Source of the DNA: Lachnospiraceae bacterium
GTDB taxonomy: Bacteria; Bacillota; Clostridia; Lachnospirales; Lachnospiraceae
Length of the DNA: 64,000 nt
Direction: 5' to 3'
Assembly (NCBI GenBank): GCA_017552985.1
Contig: JAFZNO010000093.1
Coordinates: 20,438-84,437 of the forward strand
Shown piece after piece: positions 40,241 to 64,000 of the stretch. The notes under the pieces were generated by a model. The model searched no databases and was not told the origin of the DNA. It saw only the letters and a program-made list of their open reading frames with translations. The translations under genes and the position numbers were made by a program. Each line of letters begins with the position of its first letter. Within the stretch, counting starts at the first letter, position 1.

Positions 40241-41812
40241 TTACAAGTTCGTATACCCCATCAATGCCGCGTCAACTTCCTTTGCCGCACCTCTGCCTTC
40301 CGCGATTGCCCACACAACGAGGGACTGTCCCCGGTGCATGTCGCCTGCCGTGAAGATTTTCTTCTTGGAGGTGTGATATCCGCAGGGCGAGGTTTTTACG
40401 TTCGTCCGTCCGTCAACTTCCACCCCAAAGGCTTCCGTGACGTAGGATTCACTTCCAAGGAATCCTGCGGCAATGAGAACGAGCTGGGCGGGTACCGTCT
40501 TCTCAGAACCTGCCACGGGAACCATGTTCATTCTTCCCGTTTTCTCATCCTTCTTCGCCTCGAGGGAAACTAAAACCACTTCTTTCAGGTTCCCCTTCTC
40601 GTCCTTCACAAATTCTTTTACGGTCGTCTGGTAGACTCTGGGATCCTCACCAAACTTCCAGATGGCCTCCTCCTGGCCGTAATCCACTTTCAGGATCCTG
40701 GGCCACTCGGGCCATGGATTCGACGGTAATCTCGTCTCTGAAGGCTTCGGCATCATCTCAAGCTGCGTCACGGACCTTGCTCCAAGTCTGATGCAACTGC
40801 CGACACAGTCATTTCCCGTGTCACCGCCGCCGATCACGATCACGTCCTTATCCTTTGCCAACTCATAAGGAACCTTCTTAAAATCAGAATCCAAAAGACT
40901 CTTCGTCACTTGTCCTAGGAAGTCAACTGCAAAATAGATGCCCTTTGCATCTCTTCCGGGTGCGTTGATGTCTCTGGGATGCGATGCGCCGCACGCCAAA
41001 ATGATGGCGTCATATTCCTTTTCCAGCTCTGCGGGATCAATCCGTACCGTTCCGTCTTCCCACGTCTCAGCGCTTGTTGCTTCTCCTTTTTTACCAGTCT
41101 TGGATGGTTGCACGGCATCACTTTTCGCTGCCGCGCCTACGTTCGCATTCACGACGAACTTGACTCCAGCCTCCTCCATGAGTTTCACGCGTCTGTCGAT
41201 CACGGACTTTTCCAGCTTCATGTTGGGAATGCCGTAGCGGAGAAGTCCGCCCACGCGGTCCTTTCTCTCATATACCGTCACTTCATGACCGCGTCTGTTC
41301 AGAAGCTGCGCTGCAGCAAGTCCGGAAGGACCGCTTCCGATGACTGCGACCTTCTTTCCCGTGCGAACCTTCGGTGCTACCTCCTTCACAAGATCATGCT
41401 CATAGGCATATTCGATCACGGTCTTCTCATTTTCTTTCGTCGATACCGGTGCGTCATGCAATCCGCAGGTACATGCAGCCTCGCACAGGGCGGGACACAC
41501 CCTGCAGGTGAATTCCGGAAAGCTGTGGGTCACGGAGAGACGGTCATATGCCTGCTCCAAACGCCCCCGGAACACCAAGTCATTCACCTCCGGCACCAGA
41601 TTGTGCAAAGGACATCCTGAAGCCATGCCCGCGATCATCACTCCCGCCTGACAAAAAGGCACGCCGCAGTCCATGCACCTCGCTGCCTGCTTCTTCTGCT
41701 CCTCCAGTGAAAGCCTTCCATGAAACTCATGGAAATCCTTCACCCTTTCTTTTTCCTGTATCACCGGTCCGTCAACTCTCTCATATTCCAAAAAACCTGT
41801 CGCCTTACCCAT
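40241..41812 (-). CDS. gltD: Glutamate synthase small subunit (NADPH-type)
   Basis: 523 residues from the ATG at 41812, 7 nt after GGGAGG. The N-terminal Cys clusters for two [4Fe-4S] centres are present (ARCMDCGVPFC, SGCPLHN, CRVCPALCEAACTC). FAD motif GSGPSGLAAAQLL and NADPH motif GGGDTGNDCVGS follow. An inserted Lys/Ser-rich loop lies near residue 250. It passes electrons to GltB. It is read after gltB but separated by a 424-bp dyad array. Confidence 0.95.
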   Translation of the reverse strand: MGKATGFLEYERVDGPVIQEKERVKDFHEFHGRLSLEEQKKQAARCMDCGVPFCQAGVMIAGMASGCPLHNLVPEVNDLVFRGRLEQAYDRLSVTHSFPEFTCRVCPALCEAACTCGLHDAPVSTKENEKTVIEYAYEHDLVKEVAPKVRTGKKVAVIGSGPSGLAAAQLLNRRGHEVTVYERKDRVGGLLRYGIPNMKLEKSVIDRRVKLMEEAGVKFVVNANVGAAAKSDAVQPSKTGKKGEATSAETWEDGTVRIDPAELEKEYDAIILACGASHPRDINAPGRDAKGIYFAVDFLGQVTKSLLDSDFKKVPYELAKDKDVIVIGGGDTGNDCVGSCIRLGARSVTQLEMMPKPSETRLPSNPWPEWPRILKVDYGQEEAIWKFGEDPRVYQTTVKEFVKDEKGNLKEVVLVSLEAKKDEKTGRMNMVPVAGSEKTVPAQLVLIAAGFLGSESYVTEAFGVEVDGRTNVKTSPCGYHTSKKKIFTAGDMHRGQSLVVWAIAEGRGAAKEVDAALMGYTNL

Positions 41813-41859
41813 TGCCGCTCCTCCCTTATCAACATATATCATCAACTTTCGTTTCTGAT

Positions 41860-42226
41860 TACCCGCGTTTCTCTGGCCTTCCTGGGTATATTGCTTCTTT
41901 ATTTGCTAAAATTACCCGCGTTTCTCTGGCCTTCGTGGGTATTTTGCTTTTTACTTCACATATTTACCCACACTCATAAAACCTCTGGGTATATACTCAA
42001 CTTCTGCCACTTTATACCCACGCATTTCCATCATCCGTGGGTATAATCAAGCTTTCTACTACATTTTTACCCAATATCTTCCAATATCTCTGGGTAATCT
42101 TATCCGATTAATATATTTTTACCCAAACGACCTCAACATTATGGGTAAATTATCATCAAAATTGTTTATATACCCAGCCATTCCCATCTAAGCGGGTATT
42201 TACTCAGCTTTTTAGGCCATATACCC
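41860..42226. repeat. Array of seven TACCC...GGGTA dyads with 50-53 bp period
   Basis: Complete dyads start at 41860, 41913, 41965, 42015, 42068, 42120 and 42171, each 27-29 bp; a lone half-site is at 42222. Start-to-start spacing is 53, 52, 50, 53, 52, 51 and 51 bp. The arms are constant (TACCCA/TGGGTA), but the inner 17-19 bp and the connectors diverge, apart from the first two units, which are nearly identical. The connectors are AT-rich. It fills the gltB-gltD gap. It is not CRISPR: there is no conserved unit beyond the arms. Confidence 0.9.
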
Positions 42227-42236
42227 AACATAACGT

Positions 42237-45200
42237 TTATTTCATCATTTCCGTGAAGGCTTCGATCTGCGCTTCCTCGTGGCTCATTCCCTGCTCCTCA
42301 TTCTTTGCGGTGAGTCTAAGCATCTCTTTGTAGTCCGAAGGAATGATCTTCTTGAAGTGAGCAACCTGTTGATCGAAATCAGCCAGGATCTTCTGCGCCT
42401 TCTTCGAACCCGTCGCCGCAACGTGCTTCTCCAGAATCCTGTGGAGCTCCTCACGGTCTGCCTTCGTGTCCACGACTTCCATGTTTACGAGTTGCTTATT
42501 GAGGTTACGATAGAGCTTATTTCCTTCATCGAGCACGTATGCCACGCCGCCGCTCATGCCTGCCGCAAAGTTCTTGCCGGTCGGTCCAAGGATGACAACG
42601 CGTCCGCCGGTCATGTACTCACAGCCATGCTCTCCAACGCCTTCGGCGACTGCCGTTACGCCAGAGTTACGGATGCAGAAACGCTCGCCTGCCATACCTG
42701 CGATATAAGCTTCACCGGAGGTTGCGCCATAGAGTGCCACGTTGCCGATGATAATGTTTTCAGAAGGATCATACTTTGCCTCTTCCGGCACTTTGACGAT
42801 GAGCTTGCCGCCGGATAAGCCCTTTCCAAAGTAATCATTACCGTCGCCAGTCAGTCTCAAGGTCAGGCCCTTGGGCAAGAATGCGCCAAAGCTCTGTCCG
42901 CCTGCGCCCTCGCAATCGATCACGATCGTATCCTCGGGAAGTCCCTCAGGATGCTTTCTGGTGATCTCCGCGCCAAGAAGCGTGCCAAACGTTCTGTCAA
43001 CGTTGGTGATCTTAATGGATTTCTCGCATGCCGTGCCCTTCTCAAGCGCCGCCTTGATCTCCTTTGCCTTAAGCAGTACGCTTTCATCCTTTGTCTGCGC
43101 CAGCTTGAAATCATATCTCTTATCAGGCTGGAAGGTCTGCTGGTCTCTTGCCACGCCGCTCATGTCCATCAAGATCCTGCTAAGATCCATCTTGTCATCC
43201 GCATCCAAGGAGTTGCCTTTCTTGGCTTCCAAAAGATCCGTGCGGCCAACCAGCTCGCTCAAGCGACGAACGCCGAGCTTTGCCATGTATTCGCGAACCT
43301 GTCTCGCGATGAATCTCATGAAGTTTTCAACGTATTCCGGCTTACCTGCGAAACGCTTTCTGAGCTCAGGGTTCTGCGTTGCGATGCCCATGGGGCAGGT
43401 ATCCTGATGACACACTCTCATCATCACGCAGCCCAGCGTCACCAGGGGAGCGGTTGCGAAACCAAATTCCTCCGCGCCAAGGATCGCTGCGATCGCCACG
43501 TCGCGACCGGTCATCAGCTTACCGTCCGTCTCGATCACGACCTGATTACGAAGGCCGTTTGCTACCAGCGTCTGATGGGCCTCCGCAAGGCCAAGCTCCC
43601 AGGGAAGTCCTGCATTGTGAATGGAGCTCAATGGTGCCGCACCGGTACCTCCGTCGTATCCGGATACCAGGACCACCTCTGCGCCTGCCTTGGCAACGCC
43701 TGCTGCCACGGTACCAACGCCTGCCTCAGATACCAATTTTACGGAAATTCTTGCATTCTTATTTGCATTCTTTAAGTCATAGATCAGCTGTGCCAGATCC
43801 TCGATCGAATAAATGTCATGATGAGGCGGAGGCGAGATCAGGCTCACGCCAGGTGTTGAATGTCTCGTCTTTGCGATCCAGGGATAAACCTTCTTTCCGG
43901 GAAGGTGGCCGCCCTCACCAGGCTTTGCGCCCTGTGCCATCTTGATCTGGATTTCTTTTGCACTCACCAGATACTGGCTGGTCACGCCAAAACGTCCGCT
44001 CGCCACCTGTTTGATGGCGGAGGATCTGTCATTTGCGGTGCCTGCGGAAGCAATTCTCTCATCGCTCTCACCGCCCTCACCACTGTTGGACTTACCGTGT
44101 AGCCGGTTCATGGCGATGGCCAGTGCCGTATGTGCCTCCTCAGAGATGGAACCATAGGACATGGCACCCGTCTTAAAGCGCTTTACGATCTCGTCCTCGC
44201 TCTCAACCTCTTCCAGGGGAATGCCCTCAGCTGGGAACTTGAACTCCATAAGGCTCCTAAGATACCCCGTCTCCTCGGCATCCGCCATCTTTGTGTATTC
44301 CACAAACTTATCGTAATTTCCATCCCTCGTTGCCAGTTGGAGCATGTGAATGGTCTGGGGATTATATCTGTGATTCTCACCCTGGCTTCTGGACTTATGT
44401 CTGCCTGCTGCCGTCAGTTCAAGATCTACGGGCAGTCCTAAGGGATCAAAGGCGAGACTGTGCTGTTTATCCACTGCCTTGCCGATGTCTTCAAGCGTGA
44501 TGCCTCCAACGCGGCTTACGGTGCCAGGGAAATACTTCTGGGTAACACTCTCGGAAATGCCGATGGCCTCAAAGATCTTACTGCCCTGATAAGACTGTAT
44601 CGTGGAGATGCCCATCTTCGACGCGATCTTTACAATGCCCTGAAGCACTGCCTTGTCATAGTCCTCCACTGCAGCGTAGAAATCTTTTTCCAGAAGGCCC
44701 TCTTCCACGAGTTCGCCGATCGTTGCATGCGCAAGGTATGGATTGACTGCGGAAGCACCAAAACCAAGGAGCGTTGCAAAATGATGTACCTCCCTGGGCT
44801 CGCCGGATTCCAGGATCAGCGAGATTGCCGTACATTTCTTCGTCTCAACCAAATGGGTGTGCACTGCGGAAACGGCAAGAAGCGAAGGGATCGCCACGTG
44901 ATTCTCGTCCACGCCCCTGTCGGACAGGATGAGGATCGTCGCACCTTCCTGATATGCCTTATCCACTTCCACGTAAAGGTGCTTCAGTACCTGCTTCATG
45001 GGCGTACCCTTATAGAACAGGATGGATACCTTGGCTACATGGAAACCGTCCTTCTTCAGATGCTCGATCTTCAAAAGGTCGAGATCGGAAAGGATCGGGT
45101 TATTGATCTTAAGTACGTGACAGTTCTCCGGCTTCTCTTCAAGGAGGTTACCATTCTTTCCAAGGTAAACCGTGCCGGCAGTCACAATCTTTTCTCTCTC

Positions 45201-46790
45201 AGCGTCAATGGGCGGGTTGGTTACCTGTGCAAAGAGCTGTTTGAAATAATAAAACAGTGGCTGATGCTTTTGGGAAAGCGCTGCGATCGGAGTATCGACG
45301 CCCATTGCGCCGATCTGCTCCGAGCCGTTCAACGCCATTGTGCGGATGGAATCATGATAGTTCTCATAAGTATATCCAAAGGCCTTCTGCAGGCGCGCAC
45401 GCTCGGTCTTCGTATAGGAAGGCACAAGTAGATTCGGGATCTTTACGTCATGCAGTTCCAACAGATTGCTGTCCAGCCACTCTCCGTAAGGCTCCTTATG
45501 GGCATATTTCGCCTTGATCTCCTCATCCTCATAGATCTTGCCGGCAATCGTATCTACCAGCAGCATCTTTCCGGGATGGAGACGCTCTTTCTTCAACACG
45601 TGCTTCTCATCCAGGGGCAAAACGCCAACCTCTGAACTTAGGATTAGTCTTCCGTCGTCCATCACGTAATATCTCGAAGGTCTCAGACCGTTTCTGTCAA
45701 GAATGGCGCCCATCACGTCGCCGTCTGAGAACAAAATGGATGCAGGACCGTCCCAGGGCTCCATCATCGTCGCATAATACTGATAGAAGTCTCTCTCCTC
45801 CTGGGAGATGGTGTCATTGTGCTGCCAAGGCTCGGGAATGGCGATCATGGCCGCAAGAGGCAGCTCCATGCCGCTCATCATAAGGAATTCCAAAGTATTA
45901 TCCAGCATCGCGGAATCCGATCCGCTCTGAGAGATCACGGGGAACACGCTCGTCTCGTCCTCACGGGAGAAGGCGGAAGTATGCATGGTCTCCTCGCGTG
46001 CAAGCATCTTATCCGCATTGCCCTTAATGGTGTTGATCTCACCATTGTGTACCATGAGACGGTTAGGATGCGCGCGATTCCAGCTCGGCGTCGTGTTCGT
46101 GGAAAAACGCGAATGCACCATGGCAATGGCAGATTTATAATCCTTATCCTGAAGGTCCAAGAAGAAGGTGCGAAGCTGTCCCACCAGGAACATGCCCTTG
46201 TATACGATGGTACGGCAGGACAGGGACGGAATGTAAGTACTGACGCTGCTCTGCTCAAACTCTCTTCTGATGACGTAAAGCTTTCTGTCAAAGGCAAGAT
46301 CCGTCTTGGCCTGCTCCGGGCGCTCAATAAACACCTGGCTGATCCAAGGCATGCACTCACGCGCACGGGTGCCAAGTACGTCCGGCGCCGTCTCCACGTC
46401 TCTCCAAGCCAGGATCTTTAATCCTGCCTTCCTTACAATGATCTCGAACAAAGACTTTGCCTGTCTGCGCTCCAATTCACCCTGCGGGAAAAAGAACGTG
46501 CCGACGCCATATCCGCGTCTTTCCGGAAGGGTAACTCCCTGCTCCTTTAATTTCTTCACAAAAAAATCATGCGGGATCTGAGTTAAGATACCAACGCCGT
46601 CGCCCGTCTTTCCTTCCGCATCCTTACCAGCGCGATGCTCTAGGTTTTCTACGATGGAAAGTGCGTCTGCCACCAGAGCGTGGCTGGCCTTTCCCTTTAC
46701 GTCGATGATCGCGCCGATACCACAGTTGTCATGCTCAAACTGCGGATCGTACAAGCCTTTTTCCCTGATTTCTTTGAATCCGTCTTTCAT
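42237..46790 (-). CDS. gltB: Glutamate synthase large subunit
   Basis: 1517 residues, the normal GltB length. After a 22-residue propeptide the Ntn nucleophile Cys heads NCGIGAIIDVKG. The order is glutaminase (to about 430), central domain, FMN-binding synthase domain (EGGESDERI, PGEGGHLPG, SGYDGGTGAAP) with the [3Fe-4S] ligands in CVMMRVCHQDTCPMG, and the C-terminal beta-helix GxGxG repeat. It forms two glutamates from glutamine and 2-oxoglutarate. AAGGAGG precedes the ATG. The leader and promoter match those of glnN. Confidence 0.97.
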   Translation of the reverse strand: MKDGFKEIREKGLYDPQFEHDNCGIGAIIDVKGKASHALVADALSIVENLEHRAGKDAEGKTGDGVGILTQIPHDFFVKKLKEQGVTLPERRGYGVGTFFFPQGELERRQAKSLFEIIVRKAGLKILAWRDVETAPDVLGTRARECMPWISQVFIERPEQAKTDLAFDRKLYVIRREFEQSSVSTYIPSLSCRTIVYKGMFLVGQLRTFFLDLQDKDYKSAIAMVHSRFSTNTTPSWNRAHPNRLMVHNGEINTIKGNADKMLAREETMHTSAFSREDETSVFPVISQSGSDSAMLDNTLEFLMMSGMELPLAAMIAIPEPWQHNDTISQEERDFYQYYATMMEPWDGPASILFSDGDVMGAILDRNGLRPSRYYVMDDGRLILSSEVGVLPLDEKHVLKKERLHPGKMLLVDTIAGKIYEDEEIKAKYAHKEPYGEWLDSNLLELHDVKIPNLLVPSYTKTERARLQKAFGYTYENYHDSIRTMALNGSEQIGAMGVDTPIAALSQKHQPLFYYFKQLFAQVTNPPIDAEREKIVTAGTVYLGKNGNLLEEKPENCHVLKINNPILSDLDLLKIEHLKKDGFHVAKVSILFYKGTPMKQVLKHLYVEVDKAYQEGATILILSDRGVDENHVAIPSLLAVSAVHTHLVETKKCTAISLILESGEPREVHHFATLLGFGASAVNPYLAHATIGELVEEGLLEKDFYAAVEDYDKAVLQGIVKIASKMGISTIQSYQGSKIFEAIGISESVTQKYFPGTVSRVGGITLEDIGKAVDKQHSLAFDPLGLPVDLELTAAGRHKSRSQGENHRYNPQTIHMLQLATRDGNYDKFVEYTKMADAEETGYLRSLMEFKFPAEGIPLEEVESEDEIVKRFKTGAMSYGSISEEAHTALAIAMNRLHGKSNSGEGGESDERIASAGTANDRSSAIKQVASGRFGVTSQYLVSAKEIQIKMAQGAKPGEGGHLPGKKVYPWIAKTRHSTPGVSLISPPPHHDIYSIEDLAQLIYDLKNANKNARISVKLVSEAGVGTVAAGVAKAGAEVVLVSGYDGGTGAAPLSSIHNAGLPWELGLAEAHQTLVANGLRNQVVIETDGKLMTGRDVAIAAILGAEEFGFATAPLVTLGCVMMRVCHQDTCPMGIATQNPELRKRFAGKPEYVENFMRFIARQVREYMAKLGVRRLSELVGRTDLLEAKKGNSLDADDKMDLSRILMDMSGVARDQQTFQPDKRYDFKLAQTKDESVLLKAKEIKAALEKGTACEKSIKITNVDRTFGTLLGAEITRKHPEGLPEDTIVIDCEGAGGQSFGAFLPKGLTLRLTGDGNDYFGKGLSGGKLIVKVPEEAKYDPSENIIIGNVALYGATSGEAYIAGMAGERFCIRNSGVTAVAEGVGEHGCEYMTGGRVVILGPTGKNFAAGMSGGVAYVLDEGNKLYRNLNKQLVNMEVVDTKADREELHRILEKHVAATGSKKAQKILADFDQQVAHFKKIIPSDYKEMLRLTAKNEEQGMSHEEAQIEAFTEMMK

Positions 46791-46998: not shown

Positions 46999-49900
46999 TC
47001 AATCAAGTTCGTCGGGGCTTTCGTTATCCACGCTGATTTCTTGCAGTTCTTCGGACTGTTCGGAATCTTTTTGTTCCTGATCCGGTATTTCGAACACTTC
47101 TTCCGGCTTAGCCTCCTCAATGCCAGCTTCTACGGGAGTCTCTTCCGTGTTGTCTTCCGTAGTCTCTTCCGTATCGTTCTCAGGATTCTCTCCTACGCTG
47201 TCTTCCGTACCATTCTCAGGATTTTCTTCCGCGCCGTCTTCCGTACTGTTCTCAGGATTTTCTTCCGCGCCGTCTTCCTGCGCTTCTTCCGAACCATCCT
47301 CTGGATTCTCGTCCGTGCCGTCTTCCTGCGCTTCTTCCGAATCATCCTCTGGATTCTCGTCCGTGCCGTCTTCCTGCGCTTCTTCCGAACCATCCTCCGG
47401 ATTCTCTTCCGTCACGTCTTCCGCGTCAGTCACAGCCTTCAAACGAAATGCATTCCATTCCGGCTCGTAGGTTAATTCCATTTGCTCTCCACTGTCAGAG
47501 ATCACCCAAATTTCATTTTGTCCGGCTACTTCCGACTTTTGGGATACAATGGTAACACCTTCAATAGGCATTTGAAGCTGATCCGTCTGAACGTCCAGAT
47601 AACTAAACTGACCGCTTGCTTCGTCATACGTTACGAGGATCGGCTGGTCTGCACCCAAAGGGAAATAATAGAATTCGTACAGATCCTTTTCTTCGTCATA
47701 GTTGATTTGGAAATCATCGCTCTCTTCCGGCTGTCCGTCGTCGAATTCATTCGGCTGGAGTTCGCTTTCCACAGGCTTTTCTTCAGTCTGTTCGCTTACT
47801 TGCTCCTCTTCCAACGGATCTTGTTTTGGCAACGGCAGAACGGGCTTTCCGTTTTCATCCACGCTCAGATCAACTCGTTCACCCGTATCGCAATCAATCA
47901 CGTAGTATCCGGCAACCTTTCCTGCATTGTATATAAAGTATACCGTAATTCCCGTATTATGATCTACGTAACAAATGGGAGGAACGTAGGCCGATTGCAC
48001 CATCACTTGATTCTTAGTCGTTTTAGTGGATTCCTCTACCGGCTTTACCAGATCTCCGGTTTCACCCTTCGTATCAACCGTCTGTTTTTCACCGCTTAAG
48101 CCCGCCGTCAGCTTTCTGCCGCCCTTTGTCGTCGACAACGTCATTGCCCTAGTCGCCGCAACGTTCACGGTTGTCTTTGTCGCAGCTATGGAAGTGCCAT
48201 TTACCTGCATGGTGTAATTGTTATTATACAGCCAGCCATAAATCTGAAGCGCTGCCGTGCTGGTTGCACTCACTGCGTAATCCCCGCCAACCGTTCTTGG
48301 CGTAAAGGCAAAGTTAAGGTTCACCGTCGCGTCTCCAGGCAAGTACTGAAGCTTAGCAAGGGCTGCTCCCGAAGTAATATCATGGGTTTCGTACCAAGTG
48401 CGGTCATCCGTCTCCACGCCATTGATCGTGCGGACAATTACGGGCGTCGATTGATTTCCGTTTTCATCTATGTCTACCGTAGTTGTCGTGATGATCGTAT
48501 CCGTAGTCTTTGTCGTCGTATTGTAATCCACGAAGGTGATCCGTTCCACAATGCTCTGGACCGTCCTCACGGGGATGCCTCCGACGCCGCTTACCCCGTT
48601 GGCGCTGGTTCCGTCAGGTATGTAAGTAGCCGTTCCCTGCCCGTAAGTAAAGGCCGTGCCGGATTTGGAGATTGCGGTGGTACCGCTATTGCCCGTACCC
48701 AGTTTTACGGTCAAAGACTGCGATGCGTCAACTGCTTCATTTCCCGTCGTGATGGCTACGCCTTCCGGATACTCATAGGTGTCCGTAGTCGTCGTAATGG
48801 TTTCCGTATAGATCTTGCGTTCCACTTCCTGCTTATTTGCGGAGATGTCCAAGTAGATCAGGTAAGCTCCATAAGCATTCTCCACGGACCCCAATGCATA
48901 TTCCCCTGAATTCACGGGAATTTCATAATAGTATACTGCATTGTCTACCAGCGTCTGGCTCTTGATCCAAGAAAGGTCAAACATCAGCTCGTATCCCGCA
49001 TCCGATATGGTATCCGTAGCATTATACGTATACTTATATGGTTTGGAATCATCATTGGGATCCCCGTAAACCTTATAAATCTCACGAATCGTCCGGATGG
49101 GATTCTCTGTTTCCCCATAATTACGCTCAATTTCATACAGGGAGAAGAAACTATTATTCCTCACCGTTTGATTATTGACCGTAGTACTGTAATAGGAACC
49201 TGCAAAGAAGTTGATTTTACCTTTATCCTTCAAAGTAAAATCGATACTGTCCTGCGGAAGCTCATAGTTTAAGTATTCATCTCCATTCAGCACTGCCACC
49301 GGCGCCACAACCGTGTAATCCTTATTGATCACGGCATCCATGAAATGTAAGCCATAAATTCTTGGCGCAGCGCTGCCGTTCGGTGCCAAAACGTCTTCCA
49401 AATTGTCTCTTGCGTCTTCGTATTTCGTCAAGCCCAATTGTTCTATGGTCCGATAGGAAATACCATTTAAAGCAGTGCCAGCAGCTGCGGTTCCGTTATT
49501 ATAGGAATCTGCAATTCTCACAACACCGCCGGAATTAACGGTCCTGGTAAGCACCTGAAGCCTTGAACCGGAATAGGTGGTGTTTCCACCCAAGGATGCA
49601 CTTATGGACGACATCTTAAACCAGGAAACACGGATGTCTCCGTAAATATGCTGCATCGTTGCCCTAGCACCACTCACCACGTAACCCGTGTTCTCATTCA
49701 AAACGTTAAAAGGAGCCGTATTCTGTGCTTTCAGCGGAAAATACGTGGGGTTTCCGGAGGGCTTTGTCTCTACCGTCTTGACAACGTTTTGCATGGTGGT
49801 CGATTCCGATGCGTTCGCAAAGGTATCCGCCACTTCCTGCGTGTCAACGGTATGGCTAACGTCACTCACGTCCATTTCTAATACGATCACGCCTTCGGGC

Positions 49901-61783: not shown

Positions 61784-64000
61784 TTACTTATTGTCCTCAT
61801 TTCTGTCATAATCACTATAATGCTTCTTTGCCTTACGGCTAGCGAAAATATATTGCGAAAGCGAGGTTGCGTCAGCCTTATCCTGCGCGAGCTTCGCCTT
61901 TTCAAGAGCTCTGTCTCTCTCGTCCTCCAGCATGGTCACGCGCTTTTCAGCGTCCTTCCAGGAAGCGGAAGCGTCGTCAAGCTGCGCGCGCAGATCGTCG
62001 ATCTTCTTTTGGGAAACGGCCAGCATTTCCTTGTTCTTTTTTTCCTTTTCCGCATACTGGGCTTGGAATTTCTCGACCTGTATCTGAACCTCTTCCTGAA
62101 TGAAATTGTTGTGACGGTCAAGTTCACGCTGCATCTGCTCGATCTTGGCATCGGCTTCCTGCTTGGTTCTCGCCGCCTTATCATCTCCTCGCTTTTCAGC
62201 AAGAGCGATCTGCTCCTGAGCTGCCTTACGTACTCTGGCAAGCTGGTTCTCGAGATCAGCCCTCTCCTTTGCTGCAGCCTCGCGGATCTCCTGCTTCGTT
62301 TGCTCAAGCCGCTCTTTTGCTGCTTCCTCGGCCATGGCAAGGCGTTCGTCTGCCTCTGCCTTCGCCTGTGCAATCTCTTCTTCGGCCTTGGCATTCGCCT
62401 GTTCCTGAACCTCGGTAACCTGACGTTCTGCCTGTTCCCGTGCCTCGGTAACCTGGGCGTTTGCCTGTTCCTTTATCTCGGCGATCTGGGTCTTTGCCTT
62501 TTCTTCCGCTTCCGCGATTCTTGCGTCTGCCTGGGACTTCGCCTCGGCCACCTGAGCCTGCGCCTGCTCCTTTGCTTCCGCAATCTGGGCGTCTGCCTGC
62601 TTCTTTGCCTCGGCCGTCTCCGTCTGGGACTTCTTCTCGGCTTCCGCTATGCGGGCATTTGCCTGTGCCTGTGCTGCGTCAACCTCTTTCTGGGCCTTTT
62701 CCTTGGCTTCCGCTATGCGGGCATCCACCTGGGCAATCTTTTCGTTCGCTTCCTTCTCAGCTGCGGCAACCCTGTTCTCCGCATCCTGCTTCGTCTTTGC
62801 GATCAGGCCAACCGCCTCTCGCTTTGTCTGCGAAAGTTGCTCGCTTGCTTCCTGCTTGGCGGTCTCCAATTCAGCCTCTTTTTCAGCAAGCTTCTTGGAA
62901 AGATCGTCCTCCATAAACTTCGACTGCTCGACAAGGAGATCCTTCTCCTGCTTGAGCATATTCTTTTCCTGCTTCAGGGAATTGTTTTCCTCGAAGAGTT
63001 CGTCTGCACGTTTTACTGCTTCCTGCGCCTGTGCGTTTGCCGCCGCGATCCTGCTCTCGGCTTGTGCGATCTGCTCGTCGGCACGCTTCTTTTCCTCGGC
63101 GATGGATTCCTCGGCAAGGTGCATTGCTTCCGTCACGTCAGTCTCTGCCTTCTGCTTAGCATCCTCAGCTGCGGCATTTGCGGCTGCGATCTCTTCGTTA
63201 GCCTTGCTTCTCGTCTCAGCGATCTGAGCTTCGGCTGCCTGCTTCGTCTTTTCAGCGTTCTCGTTTGCTTCCGATACGGCCAAGTCAGCCAGTTCCTTCG
63301 CCTCTGCGATCTCGGCCTCTGCCTTCTGCTTCGCCTCTGCGATCTCTGCTGCTGCCTGCTCCTTCGCCTGCGCGATCTCGGCCTCTGCCTTCTGCTTCAT
63401 CTCGGCGATCTCTGCTGCTGCCTGCTCCTTCGCCTGCGCGATCTCGGCCTCTGCCTTCTGCTTCTCGCTTGCGACGGTCTCTTCTGCAAGACGCATTGCT
63501 TCGCTTACGTCATTCTCAGCCTTCTGCCTTGCTTCCTCTGCCGCGGCATTCGCTGCAGCGATCTCCTCATCGGCCTTGCTTCTCGCGTCAGCAATGGTCT
63601 CGTTAGCCATTTGCTTCGTTTCTTCGACGGCAATGTCTGCCATCTGCTTCGTCTCTGCAATCTGGGCGTCAGCCTGCTGCCTTACCTGTTCTGCATTTGT
63701 ATTTGCTGCAAGCACGGCTGCTTCTGCCGCCTGCTTGATCTGAAGAACCTGTGTTTCGGCATTCTGCTTGATCTGCATGATCTGCGCTTCTGCCATTTGT
63801 TTTGTCTCGGCAATCTGAGCCTGTGCCTCTGCCGCCTGTGCCCGTGCTTCGGTTACCTGCGCATCCGCCTGCTCCTTCGTCTCAGCAATTTCTGCCGCTG
63901 CCTGTTCCTTCGTTTGGGCGATCTCAGCTTCTGCCTGTTCCTTCGTCTGCGCGATCTCTGCGTCAGCCTGCTGTCTTACCTGCTCTGCGTTTGCCGTTGC
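61784..64000 (-). CDS. Very long Ala/Glu/Lys coiled-coil protein, 5' part cut by window edge
   Basis: The frame is open to base 64000, giving at least 738 residues; the true start lies outside. Most of it is Ala-rich with an 11-residue period (AEIAQTKEQA-type units), suited to a long right-handed coiled coil. A block of about 50 residues starting SKADEEIAAANAAAEEA recurs as SKANEEIAAANAAAEDA about 115 residues later. The last 120 residues are more complex and end with a basic/acidic tail (SRKAKKHYSDYDRNEDNK). No membrane segment is seen here. Position before sipW suggests a scaffold for the surface apparatus. Confidence 0.8.
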   Translation of the reverse strand, partial: ATANAEQVRQQADAEIAQTKEQAEAEIAQTKEQAAAEIAETKEQADAQVTEARAQAAEAQAQIAETKQMAEAQIMQIKQNAETQVLQIKQAAEAAVLAANTNAEQVRQQADAQIAETKQMADIAVEETKQMANETIADARSKADEEIAAANAAAEEARQKAENDVSEAMRLAEETVASEKQKAEAEIAQAKEQAAAEIAEMKQKAEAEIAQAKEQAAAEIAEAKQKAEAEIAEAKELADLAVSEANENAEKTKQAAEAQIAETRSKANEEIAAANAAAEDAKQKAETDVTEAMHLAEESIAEEKKRADEQIAQAESRIAAANAQAQEAVKRADELFEENNSLKQEKNMLKQEKDLLVEQSKFMEDDLSKKLAEKEAELETAKQEASEQLSQTKREAVGLIAKTKQDAENRVAAAEKEANEKIAQVDARIAEAKEKAQKEVDAAQAQANARIAEAEKKSQTETAEAKKQADAQIAEAKEQAQAQVAEAKSQADARIAEAEEKAKTQIAEIKEQANAQVTEAREQAERQVTEVQEQANAKAEEEIAQAKAEADERLAMAEEAAKERLEQTKQEIREAAAKERADLENQLARVRKAAQEQIALAEKRGDDKAARTKQEADAKIEQMQRELDRHNNFIQEEVQIQVEKFQAQYAEKEKKNKEMLAVSQKKIDDLRAQLDDASASWKDAEKRVTMLEDERDRALEKAKLAQDKADATSLSQYIFASRKAKKHYSDYDRNEDNK

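Follow-up and report, generated by a model that had tools for sequence, protein, structure and literature searches.

In the 64,000-nt stretch of DNA analysed here (the window), an array of 15 alternating TACCC/GGGTA half-sites with a period of 50-53 bp occupies positions 41860..42226. It lies between two genes of the minus strand that we take, following the initial annotation and general knowledge, to be gltB (glutamate synthase large subunit, 42237..46790) as the upstream neighbour and gltD (small subunit, 40241..41812) as the downstream neighbour. The gltB stop codon stands at 42237-42239, and the array begins 10 nt past it and fills most of the gap between the two genes. The start of gltD is likely the ATG at 41812, since the alignments of many relatives begin at residue 12 of the called frame and GGGAGGAG stands just upstream; 47 nt separate this start from the end of the array. 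No consensus terminator or promoter was found in the gltB-gltD gap. Other tandem repeats in the window are those upstream of gltB (47135-47422), which measure 12, 24, 36, and 48 bp, all multiples of three, and are possibly coding, and several of 33 and 66 bp at 62386-63970 that possibly belong to a single repetitive protein.

The seven exact TACCC-N17-19-GGGTA dyads reported in the initial annotation were recovered with starts at 41860, 41913, 41965, 42015, 42068, 42120, and 42171, and the reported steps of 53, 52, 50, 53, 52, 51, and 51 bp were reproduced exactly, the last of them leading to a lone TACCC at 42222-42226. On average, 0.13 such dyads occurred per shuffle of the whole window, and 0 of 100 shuffles reached seven. 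The recent duplication proposed for units 1 and 2 was confirmed at 93% identity over 42 bp. The better unit register is GGGTA-N23/24-TACCC, complementary to the TACCC...GGGTA unit first described. As this register is the steadier one across the family, the window is described as seven such units (41884-42226) and an orphan half-site TACCC (41860..41864), whose partner position is degenerate. Units with an interior of 24 nt are located at 41884..41917 and 42039..42072, while those with 23 nt are located at 41937..41969, 41987..42019, 42092..42124, 42143..42175, and 42194..42226.

The gltB-gltD gaps of 29 relatives, measuring 7-394 nt between protein matches, contained no such dyad and no lattice. 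Since the array is absent from these gaps and present at many unrelated loci, it is not tied to gltBD and is not a gltBD element. Inserts of other kinds were seen in this gap, namely an imperfect palindrome of ~110 bp in the sister species G011 and G018 (loci L017 and L018) and, by eye, longer hairpin-like inserts in relatives including L032, L034, L037, L039, and L040. The gltB-gltD gap may be a repeated landing place.

Dispersal and geometry of the GGGTA family

Copies of the GGGTA family are scattered through the genome and are found across Lachnospiraceae. In the genome that contains the window (G000; L- and C-numbers denote loci and contigs throughout), the dyad pattern gave 64 matches per strand compared to 31 for the reversed control, with most of the excess in clusters sharing a step of ~51 bp. 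When three half-sites were required, 44 matches were obtained and the control gave 0. GGGTA array loci in this genome number 13, comprising gltBD and twelve others with at least one dyad that has a lattice neighbour. Within the genus, at least one match to the three-half-site pattern occurred in 19 of 101 genomes, many of the remaining single matches being at control level; strong match sets were found in G000, G011, G072, G082, G091, G107, and G113, and a weaker one in G103. A stricter pattern matched in 6 among 299 genomes of the family. Two consecutive units were found in 67 stretches among 84,980 named species genomes, 64 of which are titled Lachnospiraceae, Acetatifactor, Butyrivibrio, or Roseburia, and the other three Trichococcus, Clostridium, and Ruminiclostridium. 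The Trichococcus match (L170, 1180-1264) lies outside Lachnospiraceae and is due to chance or transfer.

The genes beside the arrays are varied. Eight neighbours scanned in G000 had no common function, encoding a GDSL lipase, an aminotransferase, SpoVAD, TraX, GH67, an FAD synthetase, a U32 peptidase, and GcpE. Among the 56 arrays that were classed by placement, 40 were co-directional, 12 convergent, and 4 divergent, compared to 87, 17, and 32 of 136 other gaps at the same loci; these classes derive from simple ORF calling, which left 33 of 89 arrays unclassed, and L170 and L200 were set aside.

Interiors of GGGTA..TACCC units measured 23 or 24 nt in 161 of 172 matches (L126 excluded). Gaps between units (n = 182, counting L170 but not the -8 gaps of L200) were 16-20 nt in 125, 36-39 nt in 36, and 47-49 nt in 12 cases, with 9 others; the search patterns favoured the 17-19 nt class, which cannot count as its own evidence, while the 36-39 and 47-49 nt classes were unselected. 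The TACCC...GGGTA gap in other genomes takes several lengths of about 18, 37, or 48 nt, usually arranged as long runs of 18-19 or as sets like 38/19/38 and 48/19/48. Such spacing classes suggest steps of whole helical turns. Array periods (55 values from 46 arrays) fell mostly near 51-54, 60-64, 70-74, and 81-83 bp, with further values of 42, 45, and 95 bp, and their pooled vector length was 0.83 at 10.1 bp, a value that carries no null. A conservative test of helical quantisation on the seven cluster centres of the periods, with spacings entered by hand, failed (p 0.82). The steps of 50-53 bp initially reported stand, while helical phasing of the arrays is a hint and suggestive at most.

Arm conservation and the DNA and RNA readings

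Five orthologous array pairs could be compared between G000 and its sister species G011, and whole units were gained or lost between them. Arms had changed at 5 of 115 positions and the rest at 97 of 424 (Fisher p 8e-7), which bears out the earlier statement that arms are conserved while loops and connectors have diverged. As the arms changed far less than the rest, they are either constrained or homogenised. A plain minisatellite without function, its arms kept by recent homogenisation alone, is scarcely credible. The recent duplication of units 1 and 2 and the appearance and disappearance of entire units agree with it, but the arms are kept while other array positions differ by 23%, the identical half-site and spacing recur across genera, and the arrays are linked to a particular gene (gene X, below).

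The initial annotation had offered two functional readings, a DNA-binding array and a set of RNA hairpins controlling the gltB/gltD ratio. Arm-adjacent pairing in the GGGTA..TACCC register scored 271, below the 295.9 +/- 9.1 of re-paired units, whereas the TACCC..GGGTA register showed a mild excess (190 vs 177.4 +/- 6.5) that was reached by 59 of 2000 re-pairings and came mainly from G107. Fifty damaged units held 89 changed pair positions, of which 62 were broken on one side, 24 were G-T, 1 was unpaired through changes on both sides, and 2 were fully compensated; three arm positions are altered in 16 of these units, which could be chance matches, and L170 and L200 were left out. G-T pairs could be tolerated by RNA on one strand. 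A recurring arm variant, GGGCA/TGCCC, carries the identical change in either arm, as expected for a half-site read by a protein.

Because damaged arms are rarely compensated, DNA recognition fits the arrays better than RNA hairpins, and the DNA-binding array is the better of the two earlier readings. Hairpins in the gltBD messenger are accordingly very improbable as the means of setting the gltB/gltD ratio. In favour of hairpins, the array region gives a more stable fold than its shuffles (z -7.5), the flanking genes at most G000 loci, L080 apparently excepted, are read with the purine-rich strand as sense, and the mild excess in one register points the same way. Against this, the fold score would be expected from repeated complementary arms alone, the other register shows a pairing deficit, only 2 of 89 changed positions are compensated, arrays sit at unrelated genes and are missing from gltBD in 29 relatives, and Rfam gave no match near the gathering score on 41500-42500.

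Gene X, a protein family beside the arrays

When the 403 ORFs located up to 2.5 kb from an array (L170 and L200 left out) were compared all-vs-all, the largest cluster was one protein, here called gene X, at seven array loci; the next-largest clusters were HTH regulators and comEC. The seven loci with gene X beside a GGGTA array, L087 in the window's own genome, L097, L130, L160, L181, L188, and L199 (B. proteoclasticus P6B7), represent at least 6 genomes. Gene X of G000 encodes 263 aa (G000:C137:50191-50973) and directly follows its own GGGTA array at a site downstream of comEC.

NCBIfam gave no match in any of the seven members, and Pfam gave none at E 0.001 in six members scanned or in a second scan of seven (best E 0.012). 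Among PDB sequences the single match was insignificant (E 0.7). The C-terminus profile of PADLOC PDC-S68 matched 7 of 7 members (E 6.7e-32) and the HEAT_CxxC_PDDEXK profile 4 of 7 (E 6.7e-7). The alignment displays RSKSE...IPFxYE...PDF...G..YYWEHFG, which we read as the site of a PD-(D/E)XK-type nuclease. RSKSE, E176, PDF, and E204-H205-x-G were invariant in 69 of 69 aligned copies, as were E159, D189, and E204, while K221 occurred in 65 copies and R in the other 4; the copies had been found with a profile that contains these very motifs. In our reading these residues would make up an active site with the superfamily motif, and a PD-(D/E)XK-like fold is predicted from the motifs together with the profile matches. 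The N-terminal half is more variable, with conservation of 0.32-0.48 compared to 0.46-0.60, and it probably holds the residues that determine specificity.

The family has many paralogues. Matches occurred in 43 of 101 genus genomes, some of them helicases or fragments, and, at the level of the order, in 83 of 392 genomes and 38 of 173 genera. Two proteins with an SF1 helicase domain, at L294 2290-4851 (G023) and L292 2645-5500 (G073), contain the nuclease-like domain of gene X, either as a C-terminal part or within the helicase. Internal stop codons in the copies L271 (G091:C17) and L282 (G006:C1) of the GGGTA-type clade indicate that some members are decaying. In G000, six further gene X loci on contigs C14, C32, C11, C42, C56, and C69 (L252-L257) each have a different upstream array, with half-sites ATATGAC, CTTGCC, GGCGGT, TACGGG, GACTACC, and ACGGCG, respectively.

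PHROGs matches were all weak and pointed to an endonuclease family (3 of 7 members, best E 0.0016), a viral search gave one weak locus at 27% identity, and phage records gave two weak matches, one of which (L370) has no lattice. Plasmid records held seven partial matches covering 23-43% of the protein, five to AAA family ATPases, one to a helicase, and one unannotated. Viral contigs had 0 matches to two consecutive units, and with gene X matches in viral and phage data being weak, a viral origin was rejected.

A lattice of at least 3 inverted half-site pairs was found within 1 kb on either flank of 36 of 69 gene X copies and at 0 of 76 control flanks. The 69 copies correspond to 72 rows minus three that repeated a place already present, and they include orthologues; they cover part of the genus copies and few of the order-wide ones. 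Because the rule accepts pairs separated by 22-39 bp and steps of 40-110 bp, a similar geometry is partly built in, while the period peaks at 52-54 and 61-63 bp are not. Applied to 63 tiles of the window, it gave one positive, the gltB-gltD array itself. In other genera, fetched later, the same rule found a lattice at 12 of 27 gene X loci and at 0 of 280 shuffled flanks, so that copies with no detectable lattice amounted to 33 of 69 and 15 of 27, respectively. Close gene X co-occurred with arrays in 7 of 8 array genomes of the genus compared to 12 of 93 others (p 2e-5), with cut-offs (at least 2 array matches; gene X E below 1e-69) that were picked after the tables had been seen; the 12 genomes with the close gene-X clade and no GGGTA arrays have a variant half-site in only some cases. 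That gene X is linked to the arrays is, in our judgement, hardly in doubt.

Among the 36 arrays, 30 lie upstream and 6 downstream of gene X; for the upstream ones, the median distance between the last unit and the point where the profile match starts is 107.5 nt. Their position would also suit an operator or decoy that silences gene X as a harmful or defence nuclease, with dispersed arrays as its remnants or titration sites, and the nuclease domain does occur in candidate defence proteins of PADLOC. Such self-control is nevertheless distinctly improbable as the explanation of the arrays, given the six downstream arrays, the many solo arrays of three families on contigs or at places where gene X was not found, and the roughly half of gene X copies that have no array.

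Half-sites beside gene X include GGGTA, GGGCA, CTTGCC, TACGGG, GGCGGT, ACGGCG, GCATC, TTAGGTAT, and more. In a tree of the 69 copies, CTTGCC corresponds to one four-genome clade (100/100) and TACGGG to a G000/G011 pair (100/100), while GGGTA/GGGCA-type sites all fall inside one clade of 24 rows. A tight six-row clade has the differing half-sites GACTACC, ATGTT, GCAAC, and AAGCT. With labels assigned by hand and agreement judged by inspection, the half-site appears largely to follow the gene X clade, in a rough co-variation.

Two further half-site families are dispersed. TACGGG..CCCGTA had 38 matches in G000 and 117 in G011 (controls 4 and 0, respectively). CTTGCC..GGCAAG had 70 matches in G011, 22 in G018, and 22 in G070 (controls 2, 2, and 5), compared to only 13 in G000, 11 of which lie in the array of its own CTTGCC gene X. 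As these counts differ across four genomes that all have the gene, amplification differs by lineage. The site downstream of comEC shows turnover: it is occupied by the GGGTA array with gene X in G000 and by a CTTGCC array in G011, and G018 lacks both a GGGTA unit and gene X there. The G011 flank past its CTTGCC array is 81% alike to G000, and the likeness begins slightly before the gene-X stop; the shared bases may be either a gene X remnant or old flank. Another CTTGCC-family array of G011 occupies part of a 1.2-kb insert, the corresponding stretch of G000 being about 75 bp long. In this single filled/empty pair (L329/L337) the insert exceeds the array and its junction is indistinct; a clean insertion bounded by a target-site duplication, which would be expected of a MITE along with terminal inverted repeats, was not seen. 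A tandem repeat of ~28 bp (GGAACTAGGGTACTGCCACGGGTAGAAT) stands behind a G011 CTTGCC array at L319 1540-1750, with about one copy in G000.

G011 has GGGTA arrays with conserved arms while a close gene X is absent (best E 2.3e-45), so that arm upkeep is independent of the presence of gene X, at least temporarily. This observation favours the main rival to a dispersing nuclease, in which gene X is a domesticated, sequence-specific DNA-binding protein and the arrays are useful to the host, in chromosome architecture, insulation, or a regulon, and are kept by host selection. The recurring spacing classes and the mostly tandem or convergent, rarely divergent placement of arrays also agree with it. 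Pure binding, however, would not need the active-site motif that is invariant in all 69 copies (though the profile that found them contains it). The eight scanned neighbour genes share no function, sister species differ strongly in how many arrays they carry, and no array is present in the sister's gltBD gap. A domesticated role is for these reasons regarded as unlikely.

Proposed mechanism and known systems

The reading preferred here, with slightly better than even confidence, is a repeat-dispersing nuclease system that would work like RAYT/REP with an unrelated enzyme and in which gene X is most likely the cognate enzyme of the gltBD array copy; its binding, cutting, and dispersal are what we infer. 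Gene X would bind the inverted half-sites of the 33/34-bp unit as a dimer, and neighbouring units may cooperate on one DNA face. The conserved PD-(D/E)XK-like site would then cut or nick array DNA, and recombination repair of the breaks would expand, contract, and copy arrays, sometimes taking gene X along. Array copies would land in intergenic sites, mostly behind genes. The gltBD array would be a tolerated insert between cistrons, selfish or nearly neutral, rather than a dedicated operon regulator. In this reading the array is one of the scattered members of the GGGTA family, and the chain of argument as a whole is on balance probable. The wider proposal appears evenly balanced, namely a large selfish system of Lachnospirales with several stand-alone PD-(D/E)XK nucleases per genome, each reading, amplifying, and scattering arrays of its own half-site by cut and repair, and with new paralogues bringing new specificities.

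Several known nuclease systems resemble parts of this one. The helicase-nucleases PDC-S68/S69 of PADLOC have in common with gene X a homologous C-terminal nuclease-like domain, whereas gene X stands alone at about 250-300 aa, has no helicase, and has arrays beside about half of its copies. Restriction endonucleases of the multi-site PD-(D/E)XK type need several target sites; by analogy, gene X is likewise proposed to need several inverted sites, but its targets would be arrays on the host's own chromosome. Rpn (recombination-promoting nuclease) proteins are multi-copy bacterial nucleases of PD-(D/E)XK type with variable parts, and to our knowledge no cognate repeat arrays have been described for them. 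Gene X is like the Rpn proteins (PMC10327210) in its many copies, type, and variable parts, and differs in having no Pfam match at E 0.001. CRISPR arrays have identical repeats together with foreign spacers and cas genes, while the dispersed GGGTA arrays conserve short arms only. A literature search, whose coverage excluded most subscription papers, found no description of such a nuclease-linked repeat system. Gene X and its arrays thus appear to be an undescribed, many-membered nuclease family marked by its arrays.

REPtrons can hold several enzyme-repeat pairs in one genome and show lineage-specific amplification. In PMC3733652 and PMC6006769, REP, RAYT, and REPtron refer to short inverted repeats between genes and to an enzyme gene that has copies of its own repeat on its flanks. 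Gene X shares with RAYT/REP an enzyme gene flanked by its own dispersed repeat family, in about half of its copies, with dispersal tested for three half-site families. The RAYT enzyme is of the HUH/tyrosine type, whereas gene X is PD-(D/E)XK-like as judged from its motifs. REP hairpins are tagged by GTAG (or CGTC) at the foot of the palindrome, according to PMC3733652, while the gene X half-sites GGGTA, CTTGCC, TACGGG, GGCGGT, and others do not carry this tag. The repeats of gene X pair two short half-sites in inverted orientation, separated by roughly 22-36 bp, and these pairs form regular arrays whose period is often about 52 or 62 bp. REP hairpins are kept by compensation, whereas the gene X arrays have no consistent pairing signal beyond the mild one-register excess, mainly of G107.

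The HUH/Y1 transposase domain PF01797 was absent from G000, G082, G113, G344, and G209 and present in G011, G072, G091, G107, and G103, that is, in 5 of 10 array-bearing genomes compared to 8 of 20 of all tested. A RAYT as the general driver was rejected, as PF01797 is missing in half of the array genomes, the window's own included; where it is present, in the other five of ten, an enzyme other than gene X could be at work. As an HUH enzyme in its own genome, a compensated hairpin, and the GTAG tag are all lacking, the system is not classed as a REPtron. If the proposal is true, it would account for a class of intergenic arrays that resemble regulatory elements, and the many pairs of paralogue and half-site would form a natural series for learning how the DNA specificity of a nuclease changes. 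It would then also constitute a second, independent enzyme-driven route to interspersed repeats in bacteria besides RAYT/REP, in a common group of the gut and rumen.
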